This document shows positions 31,633 through 51,984 of a stretch of DNA of 63,799 bases, one piece after another. How positions within the stretch are numbered: the first letter of the stretch is position 1; each line of letters opens with the position of its first letter. The notes under the pieces were generated by a model. The model worked only from the letters and a program-made list of their open reading frames with translations, was not told the DNA's origin and ran no database searches. This stretch comes from Candidatus Chloroploca asiatica (GTDB taxonomy: Bacteria; Chloroflexota; Chloroflexia; Chloroflexales; Chloroflexaceae): NCBI RefSeq assembly GCF_002532075.1, contig NZ_LYXE01000089.1:1-63799 (forward strand). The letters are read 5' to 3'. Position numbers and translations under genes: made by a program.

Positions 31633-32073
31633 ATGCGTATTTCAAGCAAGGGTGATTATGGCCTGCGGGCACTCTTTGATCTAGCCCAGCAATATGGCAA
31701 GGGTCTTGTGCAGAGCGAAGAAATTGCCAACCGTCAGGGGATTCCGGTCAACTATTTAAATCAGTTGCTGATCACGATGCGGCGCGCCGGCTTGATCGAG
31801 AGCGTCCGCGGGCCACAGGGCGGCCATATGCTCGCCCGTGCCCCTGAGACGATCAATCTTTTCGAGATCCTAACCGCCCTTGAAGGCCCCCTGTTGCCTG
31901 ATGAACCAACACGTGATGATCTGGTGCCTACTGTGCCTGAGGATCACGAAGTAGTGAGTGAAGTTTGGGTCGATCTACGCACACGCATGGAACGGATGCT
32001 CCGCGAAACGACGCTTGATGATCTCTGTCAGCGCAAGCGCCAGCGTACGGGCAATGTGATGTACTATATTTAG
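31633..32073 (+). CDS. Rrf2-family transcriptional regulator
   Basis: 146 residues with the N-terminal winged helix MRISSKGDYGLRALFDLAQQYG, IPVNYLNQLLITMRRAGLIESVRGPQGGHMLA. The three-cysteine Fe-S cluster site of IscR/NsrR is absent (only one Cys, in DDLCQ), so it is of the CymR-like, cluster-free kind and may sense cysteine metabolism or a protein partner. TGcTATCAT (31583-31591) is a possible extended -10, and CTATG/CATAG around it could be an autoregulatory site (weak). Confidence 0.9.
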   Translation: MRISSKGDYGLRALFDLAQQYGKGLVQSEEIANRQGIPVNYLNQLLITMRRAGLIESVRGPQGGHMLARAPETINLFEILTALEGPLLPDEPTRDDLVPTVPEDHEVVSEVWVDLRTRMERMLRETTLDDLCQRKRQRTGNVMYYI

Positions 32074-32473: not shown

Positions 32474-33790
32474 CTACCCCTTCAAGACCTCGCGGGCGGC
32501 ATCCAGCGTGCGTGCGACATCTTTGTCGGTGTGGGCGGCGCTGATGAAGCCTGCTTCGAATTGCGAGGGGGCCAGGTAGACACCTCGTTCGCACATGGCC
32601 CAGAAGAAACTGGCGTAACGGGACGGATCGACCATCTGCTTTGCCTCGGCGTATGAGCGCACGTGAAGGCCAGACTCTTTGAGGAAGTAGAAGCCAAACA
32701 TGGTGCCGACCTGGCCGACCTGCAAGGGCACGTCCAGTTCTTCACCGATCTTTCGCATACCCTCGGCGAGTGCCCGCGCACGAGCCTCGGCCTGCGCAAA
32801 GGGGCTTGCCTGCGCATCGCCGTGGGTGCCAAACGCAGTCTGCAACGTCGCCAGGCCCGCCGCCATCGCGAGCGGGTTGCCCGAGAGGGTGCCGGCCTGG
32901 TACATCGGGCCAGCCGGCGCAACATGTTGCATGATTTCGCGCCGCCCGGCATAGGCACCCACTGGCAAACCGCCCCCAATCACTTTGCCGAGACAGGTGA
33001 GATCCGGTTTCAGGCCCCAGAGGCCCTGGGCACCACCGGGGGCCACCCGGAAGCCGGTCATGACTTCATCGAGGATCAGCAAGGCACCGTAGCTGTGGGC
33101 GAGTTCAATCAGCCCTTCGAGGTAGCCCGGTTCGGGAAGAACAAAGCCCATGTTGGCCGCAATCGGCTCGACAATGATCGCGGCAATCTCGTTGCCCTGT
33201 TCGCGGAAGATCGCTGTCGCAGCCTCGAGATCATTGTATTCGGCAGTCAGCGTGTTTGCTGCGGCACCTGCGGTGACGCCAGGGCTATCAGGGAGGCCGA
33301 GGGTTACGACGCCTGAACCAGCCTGGACGAGCAGCATATCGGCATGGCCATGATAGCATCCGGTAAACTTGAGGATCTTTTCGCGCCCGGTATAGGCCCG
33401 CGCCAGGCGCAGAGCGCTCATCGTCGCCTCGGTGCCCGAATTGACGAAGCGTATCTGCTCGATGCCCGGCATGAGTTTGATGACCTCTTCGGCAAGCTCG
33501 GTCTCCTGCTTGGTCGGGGCACCAAAACTTGTGCCGTGCGCCGCCTGCATAGCAATCGCTTTGACGACAACCGGATGGGCGTGGCCCAGCAAAAGCGGCC
33601 CCCACGAAAGCACATAGTCGAGGTAGCGATTGCCATCAACATCGGTGAGCCATGGGCCCGAGCCGCTGGCAAAGAAGATCGGGGTGCCACCAACCCCACG
33701 AAAGGCACGTACAGGCGAATTAACCCCACCAGGAATCACCTGCTGTGCGGCGGCAAAGAGCTCTTGCGAGCGCGTGTAGCGTTCAGACAT
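32474..33790 (-). CDS. hemL: Glutamate-1-semialdehyde 2,1-aminomutase
   Basis: 438 residues, PLP enzyme making 5-aminolevulinate. Recognised by [80 protein letters not shown], and the PLP lysine in [18 protein letters not shown]. Last gene of the hemA-C-D-B-E-L run, 2 nt after hemE. Confidence 0.97.
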
Positions 33791-33792
33791 GA

Positions 33793-34833
33793 TCAGGCCT
33801 CTCCCGCATAACGATAGTTCTGGACAAACTCAACGAGGCGTGCGACGTGTTCTTCAGGGGTCTCGGTGATGATACCGTGACCAACATTGAAGATATGACC
33901 TGGACGGCCAGCGGCCTGATCGAGGATCGCTTTGGCTCGTCGTTCGATTTCAGGCCAGGGCGCGTGCAGCGTCGTCGGGTCGAGGTTGCCCTGGACGGCG
34001 ACATCGTAGCCATACTGTGCCCATCCGTCGGCGAGCCTGATGCGCCAGTCAAGCCCAAGCACATCGGCCCCGGTCGCCCGCAGGAGGGGCAGCATGCCAT
34101 TCATATCGGTGCCAAAATAGACGATCGGCACGCCGGTTGCCGCACGGGTTTCAGCGACGGCGCGTTGGACATAGGGCAGCACATACTCGGCGAAATCGCC
34201 GGGGCTCAATGCACCTGCCCACGAGTCAAAGATCTGCACCACATCGGCCCCGGCCTGAACCTGGGCAATCAGGTAGGCCACGACAAGATCAGTCAGCTTG
34301 GTCATCAGGGTCTGCCACGACGCCGGGTCGCGGTACATCATAATCTTGGTACGCCGATACTCACGGCTACCACCGCCCTCAATCGCATAGCTTGCCAGGG
34401 TAAACGGTGCACCACTGAAGCCAAAGAGCGCCGTTGTTTCGGGAAGGGCCGCCCGGACGATCCGCAACGCTTCGAGGGTATACCCCGAAACCGCCTCGGG
34501 CTCGTAGGGTCGCAGCGCCGCAATATCAGCGGGTACCCGAATGGGATTATGGATAACGGGGCCTTCACCCTTCTCAAAGGTCAACTGCAAGCCCAACCCC
34601 TCGAGGGGAGGAAGGATATCGGCAAAAATAATTGCCGCATCCATGCCAAATGCCTCGATCGGCTGCAACGTCACCTCAGCAGCCACATCGGGTTGCTTGA
34701 CCATCTGCAGAAAACCGTGGCGCTCGCGCACCGCCCGATAGACCGACATATAGCGTCCCGCCTGGCGCATCAGCCAGATTGGTGTGCGTTCGACCGGCTC
34801 ACGCCGACACGCACGGATGAGTAGCCTGGTCAT
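33793..34833 (-). CDS. hemE: Uroporphyrinogen decarboxylase
   Basis: 346 residues. It has the family signature [12 protein letters not shown], then [47 protein letters not shown] and [23 protein letters not shown]. It converts uroporphyrinogen III to coproporphyrinogen III, the branch both haem and bacteriochlorophyll use. It is preceded by two hairpins after hemB. Confidence 0.97.
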
Positions 34834-34848
34834 GTGGTGTCCTTTATT

Positions 34849-34872
34849 TTTTGAGGGCTGACGCCCTCAAAA
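34849..34872. repeat. Module B copy 2, palindrome between hemE and hemB
   Basis: Arms TTTTGAGGGC and GCCCTCAAAA around TGAC. The inner 20 bp are identical to 15912-15931. Confidence 0.75.
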
Positions 34873-34876
34873 CCTA

Positions 34877-34909
34877 TGCTTTCACTGGCGAAAACAGCCA
34901 GTGAAAGCA
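34877..34909. repeat. 13-bp hairpin between hemE and hemB
   Basis: TGCTTTCACTGGC (34877-34889) and its perfect complement (34897-34909), 7-nt loop. It lies just after the hemB stop, within the operon, so it may stabilise or attenuate the transcript. Confidence 0.65.
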
Positions 34910-34920
34910 AAAACGAAAGA

Positions 34921-35940
34921 TTAGCCCCCGGCGCGGAGCCATCCAACAGCATCTTTTGCCCAGTAGGTGATGATCATATCGGCCCCAGCGCGCGCAATCG
35001 AGGTGAGGCTCTCCATGGCGACGCGGCGCTCATCGATCCAGCCACGCTCGGCGGCGGCTTTGACCATACTGTATTCACCGCTCACCTGGTAGGCCGCGAG
35101 TGGCAATGCAAAGTTGTCGCGCACCTTGCTAATAATATCGAGGTACGCGAGGGCCGGTTTAACCATGAGCATATCGGCCCCTTCCTCGACATCAAGGCGC
35201 ACTTCGCGCATGGCCTCGCGGGCATTGCCCGGATCCATCTGGTACTGGCTGCGATCCCCAAAGCCAGGAGGGCTCTCGGCGGCGTCACGGAAGGGACCGT
35301 AGAAGCCCGAGGCATATTTGGCTGCGTAGCTCATGATCGCTGTATTGATCAGACCAGCCTCATCGAGTGACGTACGGATCGTGTGGATCATGCCATCGAT
35401 CATGCCCGAGGGGGCGATGACATCAGCCCCAGCCTGCGCATGAACGACCGACGCCTTGGCGAGAAGTTCAAGCGTTGCATCGTTCAGCAGATAGCCTTCG
35501 CTCTCGTGCTCGTCATACCCAGGGACACCGGGCTGGTTGATGAGACCACAATGGCCGTGGTCAGTATATTCGCAGCAGCACATATCCGAAATCACGATCA
35601 ACTGCGGCACGGCTTGCTTGATGGCATAGGCTGCCTGAGGGACAATGCCTTCGGGATCGAAATTTTCACTACCACATGCATCTTTGTGGTTGGGAATGCC
35701 AAAGAGTAAAACGGCAGGCAAACCAAGCTCAGCCAACTCCTCGGCTTCACGCACCGCACGATCAACCGACAGTTGCGCGTGCCCGGGCATCGAACCAATC
35801 GGGCGACTCACGCCCGTCCCATGACGAATAAAGAGCGGCGCGATCAACTGATCAACCCGGACAGTCGTCTCACGCACCATCCGGCGCAGGGCGTCTGTCC
35901 GCCGTAAGCGGCGCGGGCGAATGTGGGGATATCCAGCCAT
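34921..35940 (-). CDS. hemB: Delta-aminolevulinic acid dehydratase (porphobilinogen synthase), zinc type
   Basis: 339 residues. It joins two 5-aminolevulinate molecules. Motifs: [26 protein letters not shown], the zinc-binding [16 protein letters not shown] (three Cys in the C-x-C-x7-C spacing, plus an extra Cys), IAPSGMIDG, and the second Schiff-base lysine in [15 protein letters not shown]. The Cys site marks the zinc form rather than the magnesium-only form. Confidence 0.97.
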
Positions 35941-35971
35941 GCGGTGAACCTTTCTTGAGGTACTGGTACTG

Positions 35972-36018
35972 TGCGCTGGTCGAACAAACCAGCGTAGCTG
36001 ATGTGTTCGACCAGCGCA
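35972..36018. repeat. Module C variant hairpin between hemB and hemD
   Basis: Outer arms TGCGCTGGTCGAACA (35972-35986) and complement (36004-36018) are perfect. The inner part has a few mismatches around CAGC-gta-GCTG. It shares TGGTCGAACAA with 15856-15904 and its apex with 32137-32147. Confidence 0.7.
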
Positions 36019-36022
36019 ACAC

Positions 36023-36808
36023 TCAACTTTTTATGTCAAGCAATGCTGCAATCAAACCCTCTTCGGTATATGGGTCAGCGACAGCGGCGGGGAGGAGGGT
36101 CAATTCGCGGCAGACATCAGCAGTCGCCGGGCCAATGCAGATAATCGTCGTATGCCGAGCGGCGTCAAGGCCATGCACGCCGATCTGTTGGACAAAATAG
36201 CGTGCCGTGGAGCCACTGGTAAAGAGGATGACATCAAGCTCGCCTGCAGCAAGCATGGCCGCCAGTTCCTCGCCGCCAGGGGCCGGGACAGTGCGATAGG
36301 CAATCACCCGGTCAACGATCGCCCCGGCAGCCCGGAGCCGTTCTTCGAGCACCGGACGCGACAGGTCGGCGTTGGGTAAGAGGACATGGCGTCCGACCAG
36401 CTCACCCATCACCCCAGCGAGTTCTTCACCAAGAAAGCGCTCGGGCATAGCCGCCGGGGTCACCCCCAATAACCGCTGACATGCTTCAGCCGTCGCTGGG
36501 CCAACGGCCCCGATCTGCAACAGTGGTTGCGTGCGCAATTGACCGACCTGATCACCGAGGCCACAGGCAACCGCCTCGACCGTAGTCACACTGGTCAAGA
36601 GCAACCAGTGATAGGCACCTGCCGCCAACCGGGTCAAGGCTTCGGCGAGCAGGGCAGGCTCGGCGGGAGGCCCATAGGCGATGGTTGGACGCACCAGTGG
36701 GATCGCGCCCAGATTGTGTAGACGCTGAACCAGACCATCCGAGCGTTCTGCCGCCCGCGTCACCAGCACACGCACCCCGTCCAGCGGCAACTCTTGTGCC
36801 ACGCTCAT
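36023..36808 (-). CDS. hemD: Uroporphyrinogen-III synthase
   Basis: 261 residues. The sequence is variable in this family, but the two-domain layout is recognisable: [33 protein letters not shown] at the start, [75 protein letters not shown] and [14 protein letters not shown]. It inverts ring D and closes the macrocycle. Its place between hemC and hemB confirms it. Confidence 0.95.
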
Positions 36809-36829
36809 CGTTGACGTCCCTTCTTCCCG

Positions 36830-37813
36830 CTAGCTACCGACGACCTGCTGCAAAATTGCGGCCGCACCCTGTGCCAGCAAGTCATCAGCCAACGCCAGGC
36901 CGAGGGCTTCAGCGTCATCAGGCGAACCATAGCATACGCCTTGCACAACAGTCGTGCCATCAACAGAACCAACGAGACCACGCACATACAACGTTCCATC
37001 GGCCTCGCGTTCAGCATAGGCAGCCATCGGCACCTGACAACCGCCCTCCAGGCGCCGCAAGAAAGCCCGTTCAGCCAGCGCGGTCGCCCGGGTGACCGCG
37101 TGGTCAAGAGGCGCAAGCAGATCGAGGGTCACGTGATCATCAGCGCGGCACTCGATTGCCAGCGTACCCTGGGCCACGGCAGGCAGCATCATCTCGGCAG
37201 GGATCGGATAGGCAACAAACGCCACCCCATCACTCTCGAGCGAACCATCGGGTTCAAGCAAGCCAAGACGGGCCAGACCAGCCGCCGCGAGGATCAACGC
37301 ATCATACTGACCCTCGGCCAATTTACGCAGGCGCGTATCAACATTGCCGCGCACATCACGCAGATCCAGATCGGGCCGGAGCGCCCGCAACTGGCAGGCA
37401 CGCCGCAGCGAACTCGTCCCGACCACAGCGCCCTGCGCCAAGCCAAGCACCCCATCAAGCGCGCCCTGCCCCTGGTCAGGCACCACCAGCACATCAAGTG
37501 GCGAGACCCGCTCGGGGAAAGCGGCGAGGGTCAAGCCATCAGGAACCTGGGAGGGCAGATCTTTGCAACTATGGACACAGAGATCAACCTCGTGATCGAG
37601 CAGGGCCTGCTCGAGTTCTTTGACAAAGAGCCCCTTATCGCCAACCGCCGAGAGGGCCACATCGAGCACCCGATCGCCTTTGGTCGAAATCACCTTCAAC
37701 TCGATCACCAGACCGGGGTGCAACATCCGAAGCGTTGCCGCCATCATCTCTGACTGCGCCAGAGCCAACCGTGAACCACGCGTGCCAAGAATAAGCGGAC
37801 GTTCCATACGCAT
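36830..37813 (-). CDS. hemC: Porphobilinogen deaminase (hydroxymethylbilane synthase)
   Basis: 327 residues. It starts RPLILGTRGSRLALAQSEMM; KGDRVLDVALSAVGDKGLFVKELEQALL and HSCKDLPSQVPDGL follow. The dipyrromethane cofactor is held by the Cys in RRLEGGCQVPMAAYAE. It condenses four porphobilinogens. It lies 20 nt after hemA and 21 nt before hemD. Confidence 0.97.
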   Translation of the reverse strand: MRMERPLILGTRGSRLALAQSEMMAATLRMLHPGLVIELKVISTKGDRVLDVALSAVGDKGLFVKELEQALLDHEVDLCVHSCKDLPSQVPDGLTLAAFPERVSPLDVLVVPDQGQGALDGVLGLAQGAVVGTSSLRRACQLRALRPDLDLRDVRGNVDTRLRKLAEGQYDALILAAAGLARLGLLEPDGSLESDGVAFVAYPIPAEMMLPAVAQGTLAIECRADDHVTLDLLAPLDHAVTRATALAERAFLRRLEGGCQVPMAAYAEREADGTLYVRGLVGSVDGTTVVQGVCYGSPDDAEALGLALADDLLAQGAAAILQQVVGS

Positions 37814-37833
37814 TCTGTCCTTGCCAGACGGTC

Positions 37834-39150
37834 TTACATCGTCTCAAGATTAAAGAGTTCTGTCACCATTGCGGCATAACGCTGACCATCACCGTGCGCT
37901 GCAGCATCACGGAGACAACGCGTCGGTGGATGCAACAACTTGTTCACCAAGCTGCGCGTAAGGCCCTCAATCACCGTACGTTGCTCGGGCGAAAGATCGC
38001 GTAGGCGGCGCAGGGCACGATCAAGCTCGGCATTGCGTACCGTCTCGGCCCGTTCGCGCAAGCGGGTCAAAGCCGGCACGGCATCCTGGGTTTGACACCA
38101 GGCTTGAAAGGCTGCCACCTCGGCTGTCGCAATCGCCTCGGCCGTACTGACAGCCCCGGCTCGATGCCCCAACGTCGCTCGCACCACCTCTTGCAGATCA
38201 TCAACCGTGCAGAGATGGACACCGGGCACCGTCGCAACATCACCGGCAATATCACGTGGAACAGCCAGATCAATCAAGAGCATACAGGGCTGTTCGCGTG
38301 GGCCCGACACACCCACGGCGCGCGCCTGCGCCTTGGTCGTCATCGCATTCGCAACGTGCTCACGATAGATGATCGGCACCGGTGCGGCGGTCGAACTGAT
38401 CACGATATCAGCCATCGACAGTGCCTCGGGAAGATCGTCGAACCCCATCGCAATCGCGTTGTACTGCCGGGCCAGTTGCTGCGCACGCGCCGAGGTACGG
38501 TTCACGATGATGAGCGAGTCGGCCCCATTCGCGAGCAGATTCTGGGCAGCCAGTTCACTCACCTCACCGCCACCGACAAGCAAGATCCGACATCCGGCCA
38601 GATTGCCCAGACGATGTCGTGCGAGTTCAACCCCCGCCTGCGACACACTGGCCGCCCCCTGCCCGAGGGCCGTCTCGCTGCGGACACGCTTGCCAGACGT
38701 CAGCGCATGCTGGAAGAGCCGGTGCAGAATCGGCCCAATGCTCCCGGCCGACTGGGCGGCTTCAAACGCCGTTCGTACCTGACCCTGGATCTGCGCCTCA
38801 CCGAGCACAAGTGAACGCAATCCAGACGCCGTCGCACAGAGGTGGCGCGCAACACTTTCGCCACTGAAAAAGAAGAGCGCCTGGGCAAACTGCTCTTCGT
38901 CCAGGCCGTGAAAATCGGCCAAGAAACGCACAAGACTCTGTGCTGTCGTTGCGCCGTGCGTAACGCCATAGATCTCAACCCGATTACAAGTCGAGAGTAT
39001 CACCGCTTCAGAGAGCAGTGCGGGGCAATCATCGTGAGCGGTTGTCAGTTGCATCAGTGCCGCCGGAATATCCGTCGTGCTGAAGGCCAGCCGTTCGCGA
39101 ATCTCCACCGGTGCCGTTGTGTGATCGAGCCCAGCAAGGAGAAGCTTCAT
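37834..39150 (-). CDS. hemA: Glutamyl-tRNA reductase
   Basis: 438 residues. First enzyme of the C5 route. The catalytic Cys lies in [13 protein letters not shown] near residue 54. [20 protein letters not shown], the NADPH motif [28 protein letters not shown] and the C-terminal helical dimer domain [17 protein letters not shown] all fit. Leader gene of the leftward hem operon. A weak promoter candidate (TTGTCT, 17 nt, TTTATG) lies just upstream on the minus strand. Confidence 0.97.
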
Positions 39151-39352: not shown

Positions 39353-40651
39353 CTATGCATCACCTGCTACGGCAATCAGCGTCGTAATCTTCTGCTGTTC
39401 GCCACGGAACGCCGAGACATCAATCCGCTGGAGCAAGACCAACGCCGCACAGAGCATCAACGCCTCCAGCATAAAGACGGTGACATACGCACCAACCGGA
39501 CTACCGAGCGTGACACTCATTACATCACGTACAGCCCCGGCCATCACATTACCGACGCCGCGTGCGGCGGCATCGGCCATGCCCCAGGCACCAATAAAGA
39601 GACCAACATTCGCGGGGGTAGTCATATCGAGCATCAAGGCCAGGTTGGTCGTCGTTGCAATACCCGTTCCCAGGCCAAGCACAACGATACCAAGAATGAA
39701 GAGAGGTTGCATATGGAACAGACCACTTGACGCGATCAGGATAAAGCCACAGGCCGCCACGGCTGCCCCAATCGTTGCCGCCGTCTTTTTGGCCAGAAAG
39801 CGGCTCAACAAGAGTCCTTGCAGCAACAGAGAGAAGAGCGTCGCGCTTCCCCAGATCGCTGTGAGTTGCGTCGTTTCACGGACGCTCATGCCAAACGCCT
39901 GCGCCCCAAACGGCTCAAGCAAGACATCCTGGCCAAGGATGGCGGCAAGCAACAGCATCAAATAGACAAAGAAGACCTGAGCGTGGGGATTGCTGACCAC
40001 GGCGCCGACCGCTTCGCGCACACTATGGCGCGCCTGCTCGGTCAACTGCGCATTGCGTGGTTCGAGGCCAATCAGACCAATGGCACTCAGCACAAACGCC
40101 ACCAGGCCACATCCCATAAAGACGCGAACCAGCGCCTCAGAGCTATAGTTTTCCAGCGCTCGTCCAGTGATGGTCGCCGTCAAAATGACGGCGGTGATCA
40201 TCATAAACCACATGACCGCAATCGTACGCGAGCGATCGTTTTCGCCAGACATATCACTAGCGAGGGAGAGGTATGAGACCACCGAAAGGTTATAACCCAA
40301 CCCCCAGAGCGCAAAGGCAAGAATTGAGAAGGCCAGGCCGGGCCAGAAGGTTGCATCCATCATTAGCGCAGCCATCGGTGTCAGCACCGAGCCGGTAATG
40401 CAGAGCAACAGGCCCAACGCAATATAGGGCGTGCGCCGATAGCCAAAAAGAGGATGGTGATCAGAATATTGGCCGAGAAAGGGCTGCAACGGCGACATTA
40501 GGTTGGGCAAAACAATCAGGCCCGCGACCAGGGTCGCCATCAACTGCATCTCGTGGATCATAATCCGGTTGAGGATACCGGTAATCGGTACAAGACAGAC
40601 AGCCACAGCCACATGGAGCAACCCCAGACGAAAGTTCTTGACGATGTTCAT
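39353..40651 (-). CDS. pucC: PucC/BCH2-type major facilitator protein
   Basis: 432 residues with about 12 membrane helices. The BCH2/PucC group is marked by LVAGLIVLPNLMSPLQPFLGQYSDHHPLFGYRRTPYI, GLGYNLSVVSYLSLASDMSGENDRSRT and the LGLGTGIATTTNLALMLDMTTPANVGLFIGAWGMADAAARGVGN stretch. Relatives lie in photosynthesis gene clusters and are thought to help insert bacteriochlorophyll into light-harvesting proteins. It ends the bchM-to-pucC half of the tetrapyrrole region, about 60 nt after hemY. Confidence 0.9.
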   Translation of the reverse strand: MNIVKNFRLGLLHVAVAVCLVPITGILNRIMIHEMQLMATLVAGLIVLPNLMSPLQPFLGQYSDHHPLFGYRRTPYIALGLLLCITGSVLTPMAALMMDATFWPGLAFSILAFALWGLGYNLSVVSYLSLASDMSGENDRSRTIAVMWFMMITAVILTATITGRALENYSSEALVRVFMGCGLVAFVLSAIGLIGLEPRNAQLTEQARHSVREAVGAVVSNPHAQVFFVYLMLLLAAILGQDVLLEPFGAQAFGMSVRETTQLTAIWGSATLFSLLLQGLLLSRFLAKKTAATIGAAVAACGFILIASSGLFHMQPLFILGIVVLGLGTGIATTTNLALMLDMTTPANVGLFIGAWGMADAAARGVGNVMAGAVRDVMSVTLGSPVGAYVTVFMLEALMLCAALVLLQRIDVSAFRGEQQKITTLIAVAGDA

Positions 40652-40712: not shown

Positions 40713-42125
40713 TTATTTCTCTACTGCCACCTGGGCGGGTTGAGCGTGCAGCGCTGCAGCGACCCGTTCGCCCATCGTAGCCCCGTTCTTCCAGCATTTC
40801 GGCACGCCAACCCCACCCCGGTAATTGCCCACAAAGAAGAGTCCTGGCAGGCGTTGCTCGGCCGCTTCGAGGGTAGCAATGCGCTCGGTGTGCCCAAAGG
40901 TATACTGCGGCAACGCGTGTGGCCAACGTGCGACGTTACTCATCGCGGGGAGACCGGTAATGCCCAGCACATCGGCATTCTCGGCGGCAATCGTCTTGAC
41001 CAGACTAGCATCGTCTAGTTCAGTCAGATCAGGCCGCAACGAGCCACCAACCAACGTCGTCGTCAAAACCTTGCCCTCGGGGGCGCGCCCACGGAAGAGC
41101 GTGGAAGACCAGAGAATGCCGAGGAAGTTACGCTGCTCACATGAAGGAGCCAGGACACCAAAGCCATCGAGCGGGTGAGCGACCTGGTCACGCCGATAGC
41201 CAAGATGCACCACATTGACGGGCGCATAGGGAATAGCGCGCAACGCCGCCGCCGCCGCGTTTGCAATGGCGTCAATCAGGTCGGCGGCAACAAAGGCCGG
41301 GGTAGCCAGCACCACCGCCCGCGCCACGACCGGCTCGGTACGGCCATCGCGCTCGACCACCAACCGCCAGTTTGCGCCTTCCTGGAAGAGATCAGTTGCC
41401 CTGGCTGAAGACCAGACCCGATTTGGCCCAAGCGTCCGCGCAATTGCTTTGGGCCAATCGGCGATCCCGCCGGGGAACCCAAAGAGCACACTGCGCATCT
41501 TGGGGCCTTTGGGGGTGCCCTTGGCCGGTCGCTGCCGCCCTTTCAGCATGCCACGCACAATGCTGCCGCCACGCTGCTCGGCCTCCCAGAGCGAAGGAAA
41601 AGCTGCCTTGACCGACATCTTGCGCGGATCACCCGAGTAGACGCCCGAAACAAACGGATCAATCAGGCGTTCGGTTGGTTCAGGACCAAGCCGACGGGTA
41701 AAGAAAGCGGCGACACTCTCATCGGGAGCCCCACTGCGCGGGACAAAGGGCTCACGAACAAAGCGCAACTTGGCCGCCGTCGAGAGCAGCGGAGTCTTGA
41801 TAAGCGCGGGGGGCGAAGAGGGAATGATGGCCGGCTTGCCATCAAGCAAAATATAGCGTTTGGTGCCACTACGATCAGCCGCGATCAACGAATCAAGCAA
41901 CCCCAGATCAGCAAACTCGGCCCACAGCCGCGCATCTTTGGTGGTTACGGTATTGGGGCCACAATCGAGCACATAGCCATCAGGGGTTGTCATGCTCTGC
42001 ATCGAGCCACCAACCTCGGCATGGGCCTCGATAACAAGCACCTCAAAGCCGCGCTTATAGAGCGTATACGCTGCACTCAAACCACTAATTCCACCGCCAA
42101 CAATGACCGCATCATAGGTATGCAT
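40713..42125 (-). CDS. hemY: Protoporphyrinogen oxidase, oxygen-dependent (HemY) type
   Basis: About 470 residues. The FAD site is the N-terminal YDAVIVGGGISGLSAAYTLYKRGFEVLVIEAH. PPO features are VLDCGPNTVTTKDARLW, RLIDPFVSGVYSGDPRKMSVKAAFPSLWEAEQRGGSIVRGML, and the C-terminal LPGLFFVGNYRGGVGVPKC. It oxidises protoporphyrinogen IX to protoporphyrin IX. The ATG at 42125 has GGTGGAG 7 nt upstream; the earlier start would overlap the permease gene. An O2-using enzyme beside hemN, which is anaerobic, is of interest. Confidence 0.93.
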   Translation of the reverse strand: MHTYDAVIVGGGISGLSAAYTLYKRGFEVLVIEAHAEVGGSMQSMTTPDGYVLDCGPNTVTTKDARLWAEFADLGLLDSLIAADRSGTKRYILLDGKPAIIPSSPPALIKTPLLSTAAKLRFVREPFVPRSGAPDESVAAFFTRRLGPEPTERLIDPFVSGVYSGDPRKMSVKAAFPSLWEAEQRGGSIVRGMLKGRQRPAKGTPKGPKMRSVLFGFPGGIADWPKAIARTLGPNRVWSSARATDLFQEGANWRLVVERDGRTEPVVARAVVLATPAFVAADLIDAIANAAAAALRAIPYAPVNVVHLGYRRDQVAHPLDGFGVLAPSCEQRNFLGILWSSTLFRGRAPEGKVLTTTLVGGSLRPDLTELDDASLVKTIAAENADVLGITGLPAMSNVARWPHALPQYTFGHTERIATLEAAEQRLPGLFFVGNYRGGVGVPKCWKNGATMGERVAAALHAQPAQVAVEK

Positions 42126-42139
42126 CTTGCTACTCCACC

Positions 42140-43102
42140 CTAAGATCCACATTCATCTTCATCTGCGCCGGCATGGGTACGATGGTCTTGCGCCATTTCA
42201 GGGGCAAGCAGATCGCGCAAGCCATCGCCCAGCAGATTGAACCCCATCACACTGGCTGTAATTGCCATCCCCGGAAAGAAAGCGACCCACCAGGCCCGAT
42301 CCATGCTATCCCGACCCGAGGCCAATAACGCACCCCATTCGGGGGTTGGTGGTTGCGCCCCAAGGCCAATAAAGCTCAACGCGCCTCCAGCGAGAATGAC
42401 TGTCCCCAGCCGGAGCGTAATGAGCACAACCAGGGGCGAAGTAAGATTGGGCAAGATGTGACGCAGCAAAATACGCCCATCACCAAGCCCCATCGTACGA
42501 GCCGCCTCGACATAGAGCATCTCGCGCGTTGAGAGGGTACCATTCCGCACCATACGATAGTAGCCAGGGATACCCACAAGCCCCAGCGCAATCACGGTCG
42601 TCTGCAACGAAGGCCCGAGCAGGGCCACAAAGACAATCGCCAGCAGCAGGCCCGGCAAGGCCAACCAGGCATCCATGATCCGGGAGAGGATCTGATCAAG
42701 CGGGCCACAATAGTAACCAGCCAGCAAACCAAGGATGATCCCCGAAAACGAACCAATCATCACCGCCGGCACGGCCATCTGCAAAGCTGTGCGCGCACCA
42801 TAGACAACCCGACTAAAGAGATCCCGCCCGAGCCCATCCGTCCCAAACGGATGCGCCAGACCGGGCGGCTGAAAGCGGCTCGCCGGCGCAATCGCATCAG
42901 GGGGTGCCACGGCAAGGAGCGGCGCAAAGAGCGCAGTCAACAGGAGTGTCCCAATCAAGAGGCCACCAACCGTCAGGTTCAACCGCTGCAGTGCCCACAT
43001 CAGACCACGCCGCTGCCGAGTACGCGCCCGACGCAGCGCCCGACGCAGGGGAGCGTGCGCCTGCTTACTCTGATGGAGCCCTGGCTCGATCCGCACTGTC
43101 AT
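42140..43102 (-). CDS. Peptide/nickel-type ABC transporter permease (DppC-like)
   Basis: 320 residues, six membrane helices after a basic cytoplasmic N-terminus. DppC marks are HPFGTDGLGRDLFSRVVYGARTALQMA, LLAGYYCGPLDQILSRIMDAWLALPGLLLAIV and the ATPase-coupling EAARTMGLGDGRILLRHILPNLTSP. It pairs with the permease 2 nt upstream. No ATPase gene (DppD/F) lies in the window, so the ATPase must come from elsewhere. Confidence 0.93.
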   Translation of the reverse strand: MTVRIEPGLHQSKQAHAPLRRALRRARTRQRRGLMWALQRLNLTVGGLLIGTLLLTALFAPLLAVAPPDAIAPASRFQPPGLAHPFGTDGLGRDLFSRVVYGARTALQMAVPAVMIGSFSGIILGLLAGYYCGPLDQILSRIMDAWLALPGLLLAIVFVALLGPSLQTTVIALGLVGIPGYYRMVRNGTLSTREMLYVEAARTMGLGDGRILLRHILPNLTSPLVVLITLRLGTVILAGGALSFIGLGAQPPTPEWGALLASGRDSMDRAWWVAFFPGMAITASVMGFNLLGDGLRDLLAPEMAQDHRTHAGADEDECGS

Positions 43103-45902: not shown

Positions 45903-47261
45903 TTACACCGTCTTGGAGAAGATCGGACGACCAGCCGTACGTGACAGATGGGCATCCAGTTCCATGCAGAGATTACGGACAAAATAACGCCCGAGCGGGG
46001 TCACGACGATCCGATCAGGATGGACAATGACCAGGCCTTCATCGGCATAACCTGCCACCCGCAAGAAGGATTCGTGCATAGCCTCATCAGCCGCCATCGC
46101 AAAGGGCAATTCGAGGTTGCACATCAGATGGGTAATCGCCGCCCGCCGCCGCTGATCATCTTCGGTGAGCTTCATACCCCGCACAACCGGCAGTTTGTCA
46201 GCATCAAGACTCTTCTGATAACGCCCCAGACCGACATCATTTTGCACATAGTAGCCAGCCATATCACCGATCGAACTGACCCCAAAGGCCACCATGTGCA
46301 TCGCCGGGCGCGTGGTGTAGCCCATAAAATTGCGATGGAGCCTGAGTTCACGGGCGGCCACGGCCATTTCATCGGCCTCAAGCGCAAAATGATCCATCCC
46401 GACCCAGTCGTAGCCCGCATCAGTCAGGCGCTCGACCGCCATCTGGAAGAGCCCGAACTTGGCGTATGGCTCGGGCAGGCCATTGGTATCAACCTGCTTC
46501 TGATTGGAGCGCGATTGGGGCAAATGGGCATAGCTAAAGCAGGCTAACCGGTCAGGCCGCAACCCGATGATAGCATCAAGCGTCCGGCCAAAGACCGTAG
46601 CGGTCTGATAGGGCAAGCCATAGACCAGATCAACGTTGACACTCGCAAAGCCGAGTTCACGACAGGCTTCATAGAGGCCTTCGGTCTGGCTAAAAGGCTG
46701 AATCCGGCCAATCGCAACCTGAACCTGCGCGTCAATATCCTGGACACCGAGGCTCACCCGATTGAAGCCCAGCTCACGGTAGAGTTCAACCTGAGCGCGG
46801 CTACCGATCCGAGGATCCATCTCAAGCGAAACTTCGCCATTGCGGTCAATAAGAAAGGCTTCGTCAAGCATCGCCATCAAGCGCCGCGTCTGGGCTTCAT
46901 TGAGAAAATTCGGCGTGCCCCCACCCCAGTGCAACTGCACCACCTGGCGTCGCCCACCAAGTTGGGGAGCCACCAGCGCAAGCTCGCGCTCGACACGATC
47001 CAGGTAGGCGTCCACCACATGGGGGTGGCGCGTCACCGTTGCATTGCAGCCACAGTAGGCACAGCGCTCGGCACAGAAAGGCAAGTGAACATAGACAGAG
47101 AGTCCATCATCAGGCTGGGTTGCAACCGCAGCCAGGGCCTCACGATAGTCAGCTTCGCCAAACGTATTATCCCAGACCGGGACTGTCGGGTAGCTGGTAT
47201 AGCGGGGGCCGGGCTTATTGTAGTGATCGATCTGTTCAGGCGTCACGCGCACACGGTTCAT
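45903..47261 (-). CDS. hemN: Oxygen-independent coproporphyrinogen III oxidase
   Basis: 452 residues, radical SAM enzyme. The cluster site is HLPFCAERCAYCGCN (Cys 63, 67, 70, 72), the CxxxCxxCxC form of true HemN. HWGGGTPNFLNEAQTRRLM, SLEMDPR, FNRVSLGVQDID, NVDLVYGLPYQT and the C-terminal GMKLTEDDQRRRAAITHLMCN are also HemN-specific, unlike the HemW chaperone. The ATG at 47261 has GAGGAG 6 nt upstream. It lies about 20 nt after bchH. Confidence 0.95.
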   Translation of the reverse strand: MNRVRVTPEQIDHYNKPGPRYTSYPTVPVWDNTFGEADYREALAAVATQPDDGLSVYVHLPFCAERCAYCGCNATVTRHPHVVDAYLDRVERELALVAPQLGGRRQVVQLHWGGGTPNFLNEAQTRRLMAMLDEAFLIDRNGEVSLEMDPRIGSRAQVELYRELGFNRVSLGVQDIDAQVQVAIGRIQPFSQTEGLYEACRELGFASVNVDLVYGLPYQTATVFGRTLDAIIGLRPDRLACFSYAHLPQSRSNQKQVDTNGLPEPYAKFGLFQMAVERLTDAGYDWVGMDHFALEADEMAVAARELRLHRNFMGYTTRPAMHMVAFGVSSIGDMAGYYVQNDVGLGRYQKSLDADKLPVVRGMKLTEDDQRRRAAITHLMCNLELPFAMAADEAMHESFLRVAGYADEGLVIVHPDRIVVTPLGRYFVRNLCMELDAHLSRTAGRPIFSKTV

Positions 47262-47285
47262 CACAAACTCCTCATCTTAGGCCAC

Positions 47286-50200
47286 TTATGCCTGCGCCAC
47301 TCCGATACCCTCTAACTGGTCTTCCAGATCCTCATAGAGCGTGCGCAGACGCTCGATGGTCGCTTCATCCGCATCCCAGAAACCGCGGCCATTGGCTTCA
47401 AGGAGGCGGCGAACCATGCCAGCCGCCGCGTGCGGGTTCAACTTCGCCAGGCGCTCGCGCATCTCGTCGTCGAGTGCGTACGTCTCGGCAACCCCCTGGT
47501 AGACCCAACCCTCCACCGCATTCGTCGTCGCACTCCAGCCATAGGTATTGTTCAGGCGCGCCTCGATTTCGCGGGCACCTTCGTACCCATGGGACAGCAT
47601 CGCTTCATACCACTTAGGATTAAGCAACTTGGCCCGGGTCTCCAAGCGCACCATCTGGTCTAACGAGCCGACCCGGTTCGCCCCCGTGCTGACCGCGTCT
47701 GAGACAAGGATCGAGGGGCGCTCGCCACGCAGATGCTCAATGCTCTTGGTCACACCGCCGAGGCTCTCGTAGTAGGTATCAATATCCGAAATACCCACCT
47801 CGAAGCTATCGACATTTTGGAAAGTAACCTGGACATTCGCGAGGGCTTTTTCGAGCAACGGGCGCGAGTCATTCCACTCGCCACCTTTGCCCATCGTGAA
47901 ACCCTTGCGACTGAGGAAGGTCTCGCTCAATTGCTCATCATCTTCCCACGAACCGCTCTCGACCATGTGGTTAATATGGGCACCATAGCTACCAGGTGCA
48001 TTGGCAAAGACGCGGGTAGCGGCCTCTTCCAGAGGAAGGCCAAGTTCGGCAGCGGTTGCCAGCGCGTGGCGCCGCACCGCGTTGCCCTCGAGGGGCTCAT
48101 CGGCACAGGCAGCCAGACGGGCCGCCTTGTCAATCAAGCGCATTTGATGCCCAAGGAGATCGCGGAAGATGCCGCTGACCGTCACCACCACGTCAACGCG
48201 GGGGCGACCCAGTTCGATGAGCGGAATAAGGGTGACATCCGAGATATTGCCCAGTTCATCAGGCACCGGGCGTGCACCCATCAAAGCCAGCACCTGCGCG
48301 ACACCTTCGCAGTCACTCTTGAGATTATCACTCCCCCAGAGCACCACCGCCACGCTTTCAGGAGGCGCACCCGTATCGGCAACGGCACGCGCCAGCAACT
48401 CATTCGTCAGGCGCTCGGCCTTCTCGACCGCCTGGGCCGTTGGCGCACGGGCGGGATCGAGGCTATAGACATTGCGCCCGGTTGGCACCACCGACGGATC
48501 ACGCACAATATCATTGCTCGGCGATGGGGTCACAAAGCCACCTTCGAGCCCGTGCAACAAACCGGTGAGTTCATTATCGCTACTGAGGCGGTTGAGCAAA
48601 TCGCCAAGGAAATCAGCAAGCGGATCAAGATCACGATGATGAAGACCGGGCACGTGAAACGGCCCGCCCTCGACAAACCGACGGATCGCGTCCTTGCCAA
48701 GCCCTTCGATCCGCTGCCAAGCGGCCTGTGCCTCAAGATCGGTCGTGAGGCGTTCACGGAGGGCGGCATATTCCAGGCCGAGACTGCGTGCGATCAACTC
48801 TGGGAAGGTCACGAGCGCACCCCGCAACGGGAACTGATGGAACGTCGCCGTCAGACTCAGCAGATCAACCATCTCAACTGGTTCAGGGGGTTGACCAAAG
48901 ACGTGCAGGCCAGCGGGGATCATGCGCTCTTCGATCTGCAGCAACTCGTGGCTCAACGCAGCCAGGTAGGTATCTGGCGCAACCTCAAGCGTCGCGTGCG
49001 CCTCACCAACACCGTGCTGCAAGGTCGCATTGACCTGCTGCATACCAAGTTTAGCGGACTGCTCACGGATCACATCGAGCATCCCGGGGTCGGGCCGCTG
49101 GCGATAGGCGTCGATACTATCCTTGAGTTGACGGAGACCCTTATAGAGACCGGCCTGCTGCAAGGGGGGCACCAGATAGCTCACGAGCGTTGCGGCACTC
49201 CGGCGCTTGGCAATCGCGGCCTCACTCGGATTATTGACACTATAGAGGTAGAAGTTGGGCAGTTCGCCAATCAAGCGTGAAGGCCAATCATCAGCACCGA
49301 GGCCAACCTGCTTGCCGGGCATAAATTCGAGCGCCCCGTGGGTACCGATATGCACCACCGCATGCGCGTCAAACGTATGGTGCAGCCAGGTATAAAAAGC
49401 AGCAAAAGCATGGTTGGGGGCCGCATCACGGGCCATCAGCATCCGCATCGGATCACGTTCGTAGCCAAACGGCGGCTGAACCCCAATAAAGATATTGCCC
49501 AATTGCCGCCCGAGGATACGGAAGCGTCGCCCATCGTTCAACAACTCACCGGGGGCCCGCCCCCAGCATGGCTCAATCTCGGTATAACTGGGGAAGAGGC
49601 GCATATAGTGCTCGACGGGGAAGGTCGCCGCCACGTTGGCATCAGCCCCGTGGGCCAGCGCATTGCCACCAACCACCAGATTGCGCAGGGCTTCGGCATC
49701 CTCAGGCACCTCCACCTGATAGCCTTCTTCCTTGAGCGCCACCAGGAGCTTATGGAGACTACGGAAGACATCGAGGTAAGCGGCAGTACCAAGATTGCCA
49801 AGATTCGGGGGAAAGCTAAAGAGCACCAGGGCAAGCCGTTTGGCATGGTTAGGGGTACGGCGCAGCGCCAAACGGCGGGCGATCCGCCCGGCGAGCAACT
49901 CAACCTCAGCCGTCGCCGGGACAAAGCCATCACCAGCCGCAGTGGGACCACCATAGACCAGCGGATCAGCGGCCCCTTCGAGTTCAGGCACGGCCACACT
50001 CAACGCCGCCTGCACGGGTGTCAACCCGGCCCAATCACGACGCCAATCCTCCACGCGCTGAAACGCCAGCGGCACTGGCGCAAGATAGCCAACATCGAGC
50101 GCGCCGAGCGCAGCGCGAGCATCGGCGGGACGGCTCTCGGCGGGGCCACCGACCAGCGCAAAACCACTCGCATTGACCAGCAAATCAACGGTCGCGGCGT

Positions 50201-51119
50201 GTCCATTGGTCGTAGGGGCACCCTTTTTCGCCTTGCCATGGGCGTGGGACTGAAAAAAGGTCGTGATGGCTGGCCGCATATCAAGACCAGTCGCATAGGC
50301 CATCCGGGCCTCGATACCACGGGCTTCAAGGGAGCGTACCAGTGCATCGAGGTGGGCCGTATTGCCACTAAGCGCCACGGTTCGCATCGCCAGAATACCC
50401 ACGCTCCCCTGCTCACCAACCCGCTTGTTGCCGCGCAGCGAACGTCGCCACTTCTGATACTCCTCAAGCGTCGCAAAGGGTGCCGGGGCATCAGGATGGA
50501 TCAGCGCCTGATCGGGATACGTCACAGGATCAAGCACCGGCAACTTCCCCTTATAGCCCGGCACATACGCCTCGATCAAGAGACAGACCAGGCGATAGAC
50601 ATTTTCGGGCGAGCTATTGGTCCAGTACTGATGCGCAACAATATAGGTATAGAGATCACGCGCCTTGCCGGGGATAAGCTTGAGCACCTTACTAAGGTTG
50701 CGGAGCACCGCCAATTGGCGACGCGCCTCACCGGCCCCACCTTGCGGGCGCAACTTCTTGACCCACTGGCGCAACATGCCGCCCGACTCTTCTGCCTGGG
50801 GGGCGAGACTAAACTTACCAATGCGGGTCATACGGATCAGCGCCGGATTGGACGTAATCACAAGCACCGGACACGACGCCGCGCCAAGCAAACGCTCGAG
50901 GGGACGCACATACTCCTCACCAAAGAGGCGCGCCCCAAAGACAAACGCAGCCCCCTTGAGATCACGTTCAAGGCGCTGCCAACCCGACTCATCGCGAAGC
51001 GAAGCCGCGTCGTAACACGCTGCATGCACCTCAACGCCGTGCTCGGTCTTGATCCGGGCAGCGGCAGCGTGCAGAGCCGCAGCGTGATTGCCATCAATGG
51101 TGAGAAAGATAATCCGCAT
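47286..51119 (-). CDS. bchH: Magnesium chelatase subunit H
   Basis: 1277 residues, the usual size of the porphyrin-binding subunit that inserts Mg2+ into protoporphyrin IX with BchI and BchD. The CobN/BchH pattern is clear: the N-terminal MRIIFLTIDGNHAAALHAAA, LALVLFSFPPNLGNLGTAAYLDVF, VHIGTHGALEFMPGKQVGLG, LYSVNNPSEAAIAKRRSAATLVSYL and the C-terminal AGMVRRLLEANGRGFWDADE. Chloroflexus carries several BchH paralogues (bchH, bchS, bchT), so the exact paralogue is open. The ATG at 51119 is chosen over a TTG two codons earlier because GGGAAGGG lies 7 nt upstream. Confidence 0.96.
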   Translation of the reverse strand: MRIIFLTIDGNHAAALHAAAARIKTEHGVEVHAACYDAASLRDESGWQRLERDLKGAAFVFGARLFGEEYVRPLERLLGAASCPVLVITSNPALIRMTRIGKFSLAPQAEESGGMLRQWVKKLRPQGGAGEARRQLAVLRNLSKVLKLIPGKARDLYTYIVAHQYWTNSSPENVYRLVCLLIEAYVPGYKGKLPVLDPVTYPDQALIHPDAPAPFATLEEYQKWRRSLRGNKRVGEQGSVGILAMRTVALSGNTAHLDALVRSLEARGIEARMAYATGLDMRPAITTFFQSHAHGKAKKGAPTTNGHAATVDLLVNASGFALVGGPAESRPADARAALGALDVGYLAPVPLAFQRVEDWRRDWAGLTPVQAALSVAVPELEGAADPLVYGGPTAAGDGFVPATAEVELLAGRIARRLALRRTPNHAKRLALVLFSFPPNLGNLGTAAYLDVFRSLHKLLVALKEEGYQVEVPEDAEALRNLVVGGNALAHGADANVAATFPVEHYMRLFPSYTEIEPCWGRAPGELLNDGRRFRILGRQLGNIFIGVQPPFGYERDPMRMLMARDAAPNHAFAAFYTWLHHTFDAHAVVHIGTHGALEFMPGKQVGLGADDWPSRLIGELPNFYLYSVNNPSEAAIAKRRSAATLVSYLVPPLQQAGLYKGLRQLKDSIDAYRQRPDPGMLDVIREQSAKLGMQQVNATLQHGVGEAHATLEVAPDTYLAALSHELLQIEERMIPAGLHVFGQPPEPVEMVDLLSLTATFHQFPLRGALVTFPELIARSLGLEYAALRERLTTDLEAQAAWQRIEGLGKDAIRRFVEGGPFHVPGLHHRDLDPLADFLGDLLNRLSSDNELTGLLHGLEGGFVTPSPSNDIVRDPSVVPTGRNVYSLDPARAPTAQAVEKAERLTNELLARAVADTGAPPESVAVVLWGSDNLKSDCEGVAQVLALMGARPVPDELGNISDVTLIPLIELGRPRVDVVVTVSGIFRDLLGHQMRLIDKAARLAACADEPLEGNAVRRHALATAAELGLPLEEAATRVFANAPGSYGAHINHMVESGSWEDDEQLSETFLSRKGFTMGKGGEWNDSRPLLEKALANVQVTFQNVDSFEVGISDIDTYYESLGGVTKSIEHLRGERPSILVSDAVSTGANRVGSLDQMVRLETRAKLLNPKWYEAMLSHGYEGAREIEARLNNTYGWSATTNAVEGWVYQGVAETYALDDEMRERLAKLNPHAAAGMVRRLLEANGRGFWDADEATIERLRTLYEDLEDQLEGIGVAQA

Positions 51120-51146
51120 GCGCAAACCCTTCCCCGAGAGGATGAT

Positions 51147-51169
51147 TGTAGTTCAGACTGTGAACTACA
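51147..51169. promoter_or_regulatory. bch operator, site 1 (upstream of bchH)
   Basis: Inverted repeat TGTAGTTCA (51147-51155), 5 nt, TGAACTACA (51161-51169), lying in the 112-nt bchM-bchH gap and about 28 nt before the bchH start. Its core matches site 2 at 18 of 21 positions in the same orientation. Confidence 0.8.
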
Positions 51170-51231
51170 GCAACATTTTAAGACAATAATTATTTCGCCT
51201 GAAAAGATCTATCAATCCGACGGAGACCCGG

Positions 51232-51912
51232 CTAGCGCTGGGCCTGCACCAGCGTTACGTGATAGAAACCACAGCTAATACGCTGGGCGCGACACACCTT
51301 CATTCCGGCATCAGCGAGGGTTGAGCGCACCAACGCATCAGGGATCATCTGGATGGTCGTGCGACGCTGACTGCGGGGAAAGAACCCACCAACACGATGG
51401 AGTGCAGCGAGCAGCGTACTGTGAGGTGCATAGGTGAAGAGGAGGGTCTGTTCGCAGCAATTGGACAACTGGGCCAACATCAAGGCAAAGGGCTGGGCTG
51501 GATAGTGAATGAGCACATCGAAACAGGCAACCACGTCATAGCGTTCCTGCAACTCTTCGACATCGGCGACTCGCGTCGTGACCTGCTCAGCGAGGCCTGC
51601 CTGAGCTGCGGCCTCGGCGGTTGCCGCGACCATCTGAGGGGCCAGGTCAGTCGCCGTGACCTGAAAACCACGACGGGCGAGCTCCAGGGTAAAGAGCCCG
51701 GTGCCACAACCTGCGTCAAGGGCTGTCGCATCAGCCGACATAGCCGTTGCGTCGAGCCACTGACTGGCAACGGCAAGCATGGTGGTATGGCCTTGCCGAA
51801 TCGACCGTCGAATCGGTGAAAGTTCGGCCTGGCCATAAATTGCCGACCAGCGTTCAAAACCTACTCCATTGAAATACTGGCGCAACTGAGCCTTGTGCCG
51901 AACCAGATCCAT
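51232..51912 (-). CDS. bchM: Magnesium-protoporphyrin IX methyltransferase
   Basis: 226 residues, SAM-dependent. The BchM N-terminus YFNGVGFERWSAIYGQAELSPIRRSIRQGH is diagnostic. SAM motif I is ALDAGCGTGLFTLELARRG, followed by TDLAPQMVAAT and VACFDVLIHYP. It methylates the ring C propionate of Mg-protoporphyrin, the step after BchH. First gene of the leftward region. Confidence 0.96.
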   Translation of the reverse strand: MDLVRHKAQLRQYFNGVGFERWSAIYGQAELSPIRRSIRQGHTTMLAVASQWLDATAMSADATALDAGCGTGLFTLELARRGFQVTATDLAPQMVAATAEAAAQAGLAEQVTTRVADVEELQERYDVVACFDVLIHYPAQPFALMLAQLSNCCEQTLLFTYAPHSTLLAALHRVGGFFPRSQRRTTIQMIPDALVRSTLADAGMKVCRAQRISCGFYHVTLVQAQR

Positions 51913-51940
51913 AGCCCCCCCACACTTCCAGACAGGTTTC

Positions 51941-51961
51941 GTAGTGCAGACTGCAAACTAC
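51941..51961. promoter_or_regulatory. bch operator, site 2 (upstream of bchM)
   Basis: Starts GTAGT, has CAGACTG one base later and AACTAC two bases after that, as in site 1. The inner part TGCAGACTGCA is itself a perfect palindrome. It lies 14 nt downstream of the bchM -10, inside the early transcribed region. Confidence 0.8.
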
Positions 51962-51975
51962 ATTCGTGCAACAAG

Positions 51976-51984
51976 ATTATAGCA
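51976..51984 (-). promoter_or_regulatory. bchM promoter, extended -10
   Basis: On the minus strand TGC directly precedes a perfect TATAAT (51976-51981). No good -35 hexamer is seen at 17 nt. Confidence 0.75.

Follow-up and report, generated by a model that had tools for sequence, protein, structure and literature searches.

The window, by which we mean the whole stretch of DNA that was analysed (63,799 nucleotides of Candidatus Chloroploca asiatica, contig NZ_LYXE01000089.1), carries bacteriochlorophyll (BChl) and heme-precursor genes, and an inverted repeat, referred to here as the operator, stands before bchH and again before bchM. The features on which the analysis rests, listed from upstream to downstream, are:

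51976-51981, minus strand: probable -10 box for bchM, TATAAT with a TGC ahead of it, separated by 13 bp from the operator (from sequence; same arrangement at 28 of 33 bchM sites)
51940-51962, minus strand: 23-bp operator upstream of bchM, reading TGTAGTTTGCAGTCTGCACTACG in the direction of the gene (whole-genome model E 0.14; training site)
51232-51912, minus strand: bchM, Mg-protoporphyrin IX methyltransferase (PF07109, E 1.3e-29)
51175-51180, minus strand: possible -10 box for bchH, TAAAAT, separated by 5 bp from the operator (from sequence; weak, without statistical support of its own)
51147-51169, minus strand: 23-bp operator upstream of bchH, reading TGTAGTTCACAGTCTGAACTACA in the direction of the gene (whole-genome model E 0.0022; training site)
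47286-51125, minus strand: bchH-type Mg-chelatase large subunit (PF02514, 1129.6 bits, and PF11965; start TTG at 51125 or ATG at 51119)
45903-47264, minus strand: radical SAM coproporphyrinogen oxidase of the hemN type, the gene immediately following bchH (PF04055; PF06969 at 23.9 bits, cut-off 24)
40713-42152, minus strand: protoporphyrinogen-oxidase-like (PPO-like) gene (PF01593)
39353-40651, minus strand: PucC-family gene (PF03209)
32474-39150, minus strand: hemACDBEL, downstream of the PucC-family and PPO-like genes (hem families)

Between 32474 and 51912, bchM, bchH, hemN, three transport-type genes, the PPO-like gene, the PucC-family gene and hemACDBEL are codirectional over about 19 kb, and the two operators stand at the head of this bchM-to-hemACDBEL run. 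The names PPO (amine oxidase family) and hemL are what we take these genes to be. Two further gene labels need the same caution: bchJ has a weak basis (a V4R match of 28.7 bits, under the cut-off, and no match in L008), and acsF rests on a match to the Rubrerythrin family.

Over 21 bp, the two sites read GTAGTTCAGACTGTGAACTAC at 51148-51168 and GTAGTGCAGACTGCAAACTAC at 51941-51961. They agree at 18 of 21 positions in the same orientation, as the original prediction had stated, and the mismatched positions are 6, 14 and 15. From the end of the 21-bp site it is 22 bp to the TTG of bchH and 28 bp to the ATG of bchM. With up to three mismatches allowed, the 21-bp pattern is expected by chance 0.03 times per window and was observed 3 times, one of these matches being the reverse strand of the bchH site. 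Two further sites at 2 mismatches lie outside the window in the 5.84-Mb source genome; the one on contig C187 precedes a bchN-like gene and the one on contig C62, in which one arm is damaged, precedes a PucC-family gene. Together with its upstream TGC (TGC-TATAAT), the proposed -10 box of bchM occupies 51976-51984 on the minus strand, and a scan of the leader with a sigma-70 pattern gave 4 matches against 1.3 expected, none of them at this box.

Comparison with relatives showed that the conserved unit is 23 bp long, with Y and R added at the ends of the 21-bp unit proposed earlier, and that its consensus is YGTAGT-NCAGA-N-TCTGN-ACTACR around a deep core of GTAGT-N11-ACTAC. Among 123 distinct sites the arms GTAGT and ACTAC are nearly invariant, and the inner CAGA/TCTG is less well kept and asymmetric (65 sites have the better 3' half, 32 the better 5' half, and 26 show a tie; these sites are not independent). 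The original prediction had also argued for a protein-binding site from a conserved non-palindromic centre. This held only in part: such a centre is common to the two sites, but the argument fails beyond near relatives, and across relatives the centre is a weak palindrome, CAGA-N-TCTG, of which one half is usually better kept. Paired operators occur as well. In L010, L011, L012 and L013, from genomes which we take to be Chloroflexus-like, two operators stand 81-84 bp apart before bchM, a spacing of about eight helical turns that could allow looping or cooperative binding, and at L342:1290-1523 (G015) and L344:1291-1523 (G025) paired operators lie about 210 bp apart before bchH-type genes (PF11965, PF02514).

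A scan of 61 relatives with up to three mismatches alone gave hits in 54 genomes and was dropped, because it was too noisy against a reversed control pattern, which gave similar counts in many genomes. It was replaced by R1, a sequence-only model built from 38 sites of the source genome and its family, each in both orientations, with training sites chosen by sequence (pattern matches with intact arms) and not by gene context. The thresholds were E<=10 for most genomes and E<=3 for the last batch of relatives; only the best 150 first-look candidates per genome are scored, so that sites can be missed. With R1, the operator was found in 44 of the 46 phototrophs and in 0 of the 15 genomes without bchM. 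Phototroph status was assigned by a bchM match or, for G039 and G058, by the reaction-centre gene PF00124, and 'without bchM' means no match stronger than about 1e-9; the status of those 15 genomes rests on bchM alone, and G045 and G049 (methyltransferase matches of 6.5e-10 and 2.2e-9) are counted among them. Within the window's family, 35 of 37 phototrophs carry the operator; the two without it, G008 and G017, are phototrophs with incomplete assemblies (81% and 88%). The match in G058 is weak (E 1.66). When only the exact core was sought, G058 gave 3 sites where the reversed control gave 5, G017 gave a single site against 15, and G008 had none; none of the four core sites of G058 and G017 lies by a bch gene, as far as this could be read.

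In five genomes of the family, 18 of 18 places (9 of them training sites, 9 not) precede BChl, pucC or protoporphyrin genes, namely bchM, the acsF or bchH operon, bchN, pucC, bchJ-bchE, and hemN followed by the PPO-like gene, at distances of 10-161 bp and once 475. Across 14 genomes of other families, none of which was used in training, R1 found 21 places in 8 genomes, and all 21 lie beside phototrophy genes: the acsF operon, pucC, bchJ/radical SAM, the gap that separates pufLM from a MerR gene, and, in one case, a rhodopsin gene (PF01036) that the site precedes. Six of these 14 genomes have no bchM or pufL match and no R1 place. A later batch, which included the outgroup G316, gave 15 places: tetrapyrrole, pucC or reaction-centre genes adjoin 12 of them, dxs adjoins one, and the other two have none of these beside them; for the last batch of relatives presence was counted and places were not classified one by one. 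Moreover, 27 of the 29 bchM loci retrieved in the window's family carry at least one site of score >=19, several of these being training sites. We also compiled 141 distinct sites, 135 of them within 700 bp of a listed gene and 6 not; since the loci had mostly been fetched for their matches, this context count is biased and was not used as a test. One of the 6 unplaced sites, L293, was later placed before hemQ-hemH. Both observations that could have refuted the original prediction, namely a lack of enrichment before bch genes in related genomes or a lack of conservation in orthologous bchM/bchH leaders, were thus not made: the enrichment holds at 18/18 places, half of them training sites, and at 21/21 untrained ones, and the conservation at 27/29 family loci. 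The proposal of a regulator of the Mg-branch is supported with the amendment that the regulon is wider, extending to hemN, PPO, hemQ/hemH, bchN and pucC-bchF. What defines an operator regulon, an inverted repeat that stays conserved ahead of genes of related function across many genomes, is present here.

Some sites fall outside this core set. G039, which has a pufL match and no bchM match, carries an operator-like site at L204:9984-10006 (also L163:1501; score 20.7), 173 bp before a bacteriorhodopsin-like gene at 10180-11127 (PF01036). At L297 a site lies between convergent genes, for which we found no explanation.

Outside the family of the window, an outgroup with bch-associated sites is G316, which belongs to another family of the same class, was singled out by a profile scan of 400 genomes of the phylum with the candidate protein c8 described below, and which we take, as a guess, to be Chlorohelix, a lineage with a type I reaction centre. 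Here the arms alone are kept and the inner CAGA/TCTG is lost. We counted 10 copies of the exact core GTAGT-N11-ACTAC, against 6 of the reversed control; five of these sites stand 70-174 bp ahead of bchM-bchH, bchN, bchF-pucC, a PPO-like gene and a gene resembling chlorite dismutase (hemQ), the hemQ site falling within the end of hemD, and the remaining five adjoin unrelated genes. Under a generous assumption of 40 transcription units with 200-bp leaders, the chance of five or more out of ten is about 1e-12. The bch sites surfaced only with the exact core, as R1 itself gave two places in this genome, one by dxs and one unrelated. The former is a half-degenerate operator (L339:1500) 106 bp before dxs (PF13292; isoprenoid synthesis). 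The motif also hints that the chlorophyll trunk has long been under control in this class.

The position of the operator relative to the promoter was examined at 121 sites. TATAAT-like boxes ending 10-14 bp upstream of the site were found 39 times against 2.6 expected, with lesser peaks of 11 boxes at 20-24 bp and 17 boxes at 40-44 bp, where 2.5 are expected in each range; orthologous sites are not independent, and the shuffles preserved single-base content only. The 10-14 bp geometry belongs to bchM (28/33) and bchN (8/9), and it is rare elsewhere (pucC 0/28, acsF side 2/26, bchH 2/10, bchJ 0/7). At bchM and bchN, a site 10-14 bp past the -10 box would cover the first transcribed bases, and a protein bound there would block transcription. 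The additional peaks and the missing geometry at other genes indicate that some sites may act otherwise.

Taken together, we consider it likely that a single dedicated DNA-binding protein regulates the synthesis of bacteriochlorophyll and protoporphyrin and has the two sites as its operators; this regulator would be conserved in phototrophic Chloroflexota and is most likely a repressor. The operator site, its conservation, its regulon and its position behind the -10 box at bchM and bchN are shown, as is the absence of RNA-type covariation described below; protein binding, repression and the signal are inferred, and no binding or expression data are available. Of the earlier claim of a protein-binding site, it is hence the DNA site that is supported. 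In the proposed model, the regulator, probably as a dimer, would read the GTAGT half-sites in inverted repeat and bind just downstream of the promoter, so that RNA polymerase would be blocked when pigment is unwanted (dark, oxic), and the repressor would be released in light or anoxia. In C. aurantiacus, light under air raises bchM 25-fold (PMC7308566, Kawai et al.), pufL, pufBA and csmM likewise respond to light, and the transcription factors for these genes are stated to be unidentified (PMC7308566). In G029, all five R1 places precede bchM, acsF, bchN and hemN, and the whole-genome R1 scan found no operator at its puf and csm genes. As puf and csm genes are light-responsive and yet the operators of G029 lie elsewhere, the operator does not explain the whole light response. 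BChl synthesis has been suggested to precede reaction centres and chlorosomes (PMC9316378), which fits a separate switch for the pigment trunk. Furthermore, pigment genes are scattered over the genome, and a shared operator is what their coordination would need.

A different reading, in which the inverted repeat folds into a hairpin in the leader RNA and works through protein-RNA contacts or on translation, is in our view highly improbable. Many sites lie 10-50 bp before start codons and could fold, but the inner pairs 7/17, 8/16, 9/15 and 10/14 show no compensatory pairing and match no better than shuffled columns (123 distinct sites), and some sites are located more than 100 bp from the start. 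The nearly invariant outer arms are uninformative for this test, and it is because the inner positions do not covary that we favour a DNA site over an RNA hairpin. The leading candidate for the regulator is the 141-aa protein c8, an N-terminal fragment of an IS1634-type transposase (three-stranded sheet) with a helical tail that may have been recruited as a transcription factor; this is no more than a possibility, and binding of c8 to the operator has not been proven. In its favour, c8 is present in 44 of 46 phototrophs and in 0 of 15 other relatives; among 400 genomes of the phylum it was found in G316, two other weak matches spanning only 24-25 residues; at 44 of 56 loci bch or pucC genes are no more than 6 kb away, and at 23 of 56 an operator is no more than 1.3 kb away; in G316 it adjoins both an operator and bchF-pucC; and G008 has neither c8 nor operator. 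The relationship of its N-terminus to IS1634 transposases is supported by a best E of 0.02 and an hhalign probability of 98.7 over 34 columns (residues 22-55), but the five sequences in the latter test had been picked by the same search, which makes it partly circular. AlphaFold2 models c8 as three strands and four helices (pLDDT 89.4), and fold searches gave it no clear structural neighbour and no convincing match to a DNA-binding protein. Against c8, any gene for phototrophy would co-occur with the operator in this way, no operator stands beside c8 in the examined Chloroflexus, Oscillochloris and Roseiflexus-like genomes nor in G014, G017 has c8 without an operator, and G058 has a weak operator without c8.

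CarH-like and Rrf2 proteins fit less well than c8. A CarH/LitR-like MerR protein whose B12-binding domain would sense light, and whose gene diverges from pufLM across the operator, is an unlikely regulator. CarH holds its targets repressed in darkness and comes off its operator on illumination (PMC4557120), which would fit, and in some Chloroflexales such a protein is encoded across the operator from pufLM. The intervening operator is found in G040 and G039, in which the proteins carry PF13411, PF02310 and PF02607 (the B12 match of the G039 protein, at 31.4 bits, is just under the cut-off of 32.1), and it is degenerate in G058 and Roseiflexus-like genomes. However, described CarH/LitR proteins control carotenoid genes, and the best match to the puf-linked type is 131 bits in the 37 genomes of the window's family against 176-298 in seven genomes of family f4, a gap from which this type seems to be missing from the window's family; on this ground it was rejected as regulator of the whole group. 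Another, more widespread MerR-B12 type occurs also in genomes without bchM and without operator and, in the window's family, adjoins a squalene/phytoene synthase gene. The MerR-B12 proteins score 120.1 and 187.3 bits against an NCBIfam CarH cut-off of 400. We regard as equally doubtful the Rrf2-family protein encoded at 31633-32073 in the window, adjoining hemL. An 11-1-11 inverted repeat resembles the sites of Rrf2 proteins such as NsrR, and the gene lies beside hemL in three genomes of the window's genus, while four genomes of genus g5 have its relative next to bchJ. Rrf2 regulators (IscR, NsrR) use inverted repeats of 23-25 bp, but their arm sequence is unlike that of this operator. The Rrf2 protein is also kept in genomes without bchM and without operator, its DNA-binding region being very similar there (two sequences, G038 and G053), for which reason it was rejected; no tetrapyrrole gene was seen within 1.5 kb of the other 23 Rrf2 loci, and G019, G032 and G034 have the operator and no Rrf2 match. 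An unknown helix-turn-helix protein is as likely a regulator as c8, Rrf2 or MerR-B12.

Several observations made along with these candidates are recorded here. MerR-B12 genes divergent from pufLM are found at L150/L201 (G040), L203 (G039), L198 (G042) and L335 (G058), and in G039, G042 and G058 the gene is followed by one for a protein of 145-147 aa, two of which were scanned without finding a Pfam family. The protein encoded at L191:73-2223 (716 aa) combines B12-binding domains with a weak DICT sensor match, and long B12-binding frames like this one are present in many genomes of the window's family. Such DICT-B12 proteins were rejected as candidates, as they do not seem to be in all genomes.

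Returning to c8, its 56 loci were collected with two peptide patterns and are not exhaustive. Most are labelled Chloroflexales or Chloroflexi, the exceptions being a Gracilibacteria MAG, an entry labelled Thermoflexus, a Herpetosiphonaceae MAG and an entry labelled only 'bacterium'. The c8 of the window's genome is identical to that of Candidatus Chloroploca strain Khr17. In MAG TC_22 (L293) the order is c8, operator, hemQ-like gene and ferrochelatase, and in Roseiflexus-like records the chelatase large subunit adjoining c8 is of the bchH type (PF02514, PF11965). Structure comparison gave best Z scores of 5.3 (whole protein) and 5.5 (residues 1-75), to proteins of other kinds, and Foldseek gave best E values of 0.11 and 0.2, respectively; an AP2-type DNA-binding entry (6sy0, Z 3.5) in the fold search is at noise level, and a search of PDB sequences returned two matches (E 0.4 and 1). 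When 46 c8 members were compared with Pfam, only isolated matches to 16 unrelated families were obtained (best E 0.0042), member 1 had none, and no catalytic transposase domain was detected. Thus, c8 has the N-terminal segment (residues 22-55) in common with IS1634-family transposases and, unlike these, is 141 aa long and occurs once per genome (in two pieces in G018). A bolder reading, which we put forward only as conceivable, is that a domesticated IS1634 N-terminus reads GTAGT-N11-ACTAC and controls chlorophyll and heme-precursor synthesis class-wide, including the family of G316. We found no description of a transcription factor of the c8 type in the open-access literature searched.

Among known systems, the closest parallel is the PpsR/CrtJ regulon of purple bacteria, in which bch genes are under coordinated control, with aerobic repression, through a palindromic operator near the promoter. 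The Chloroflexota operator resembles it in this coordinated control through a palindrome near the promoter. The two differ in that the regulon in G029 includes no operator at puf or csm genes, and, as originally predicted, in the site itself: TGT-N12-ACA has no match within either window site, and a PpsR/CrtJ reading was rejected because the required spacing is absent. PpsR homologues have not been found in C. aurantiacus, C. aggregans, C. islandicus, Chloroflexus sp. MS-G and Roseiflexus castenholzii (PMC7308566). Our literature search, which covered open-access literature by best-ranked titles and abstract starts and left subscription journals mostly outside, found no description of this operator or of a bch regulator in Chloroflexota, and none is named there for green filamentous phototrophs, which supports the original claim of an undescribed regulator. 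The same palindrome before many BChl genes points to one unidentified regulator of pigment synthesis in these organisms, and the motif can serve directly as pull-down bait, comes with a set of target operons and leaves one small protein, c8, as a candidate to test.

Finally, a conserved protein of 109-112 aa is encoded between bchM and acsF (L059:10154-10486, L083:8784-9116, L158:1556-1885 and L160:1141-1479). It has a hydrophobic N-terminus, the one member scanned matched no Pfam family, and it may conceivably be an accessory of the aerobic cyclase. The operator lies 10-33 bp before the gene for this protein at 23 of 26 sites.
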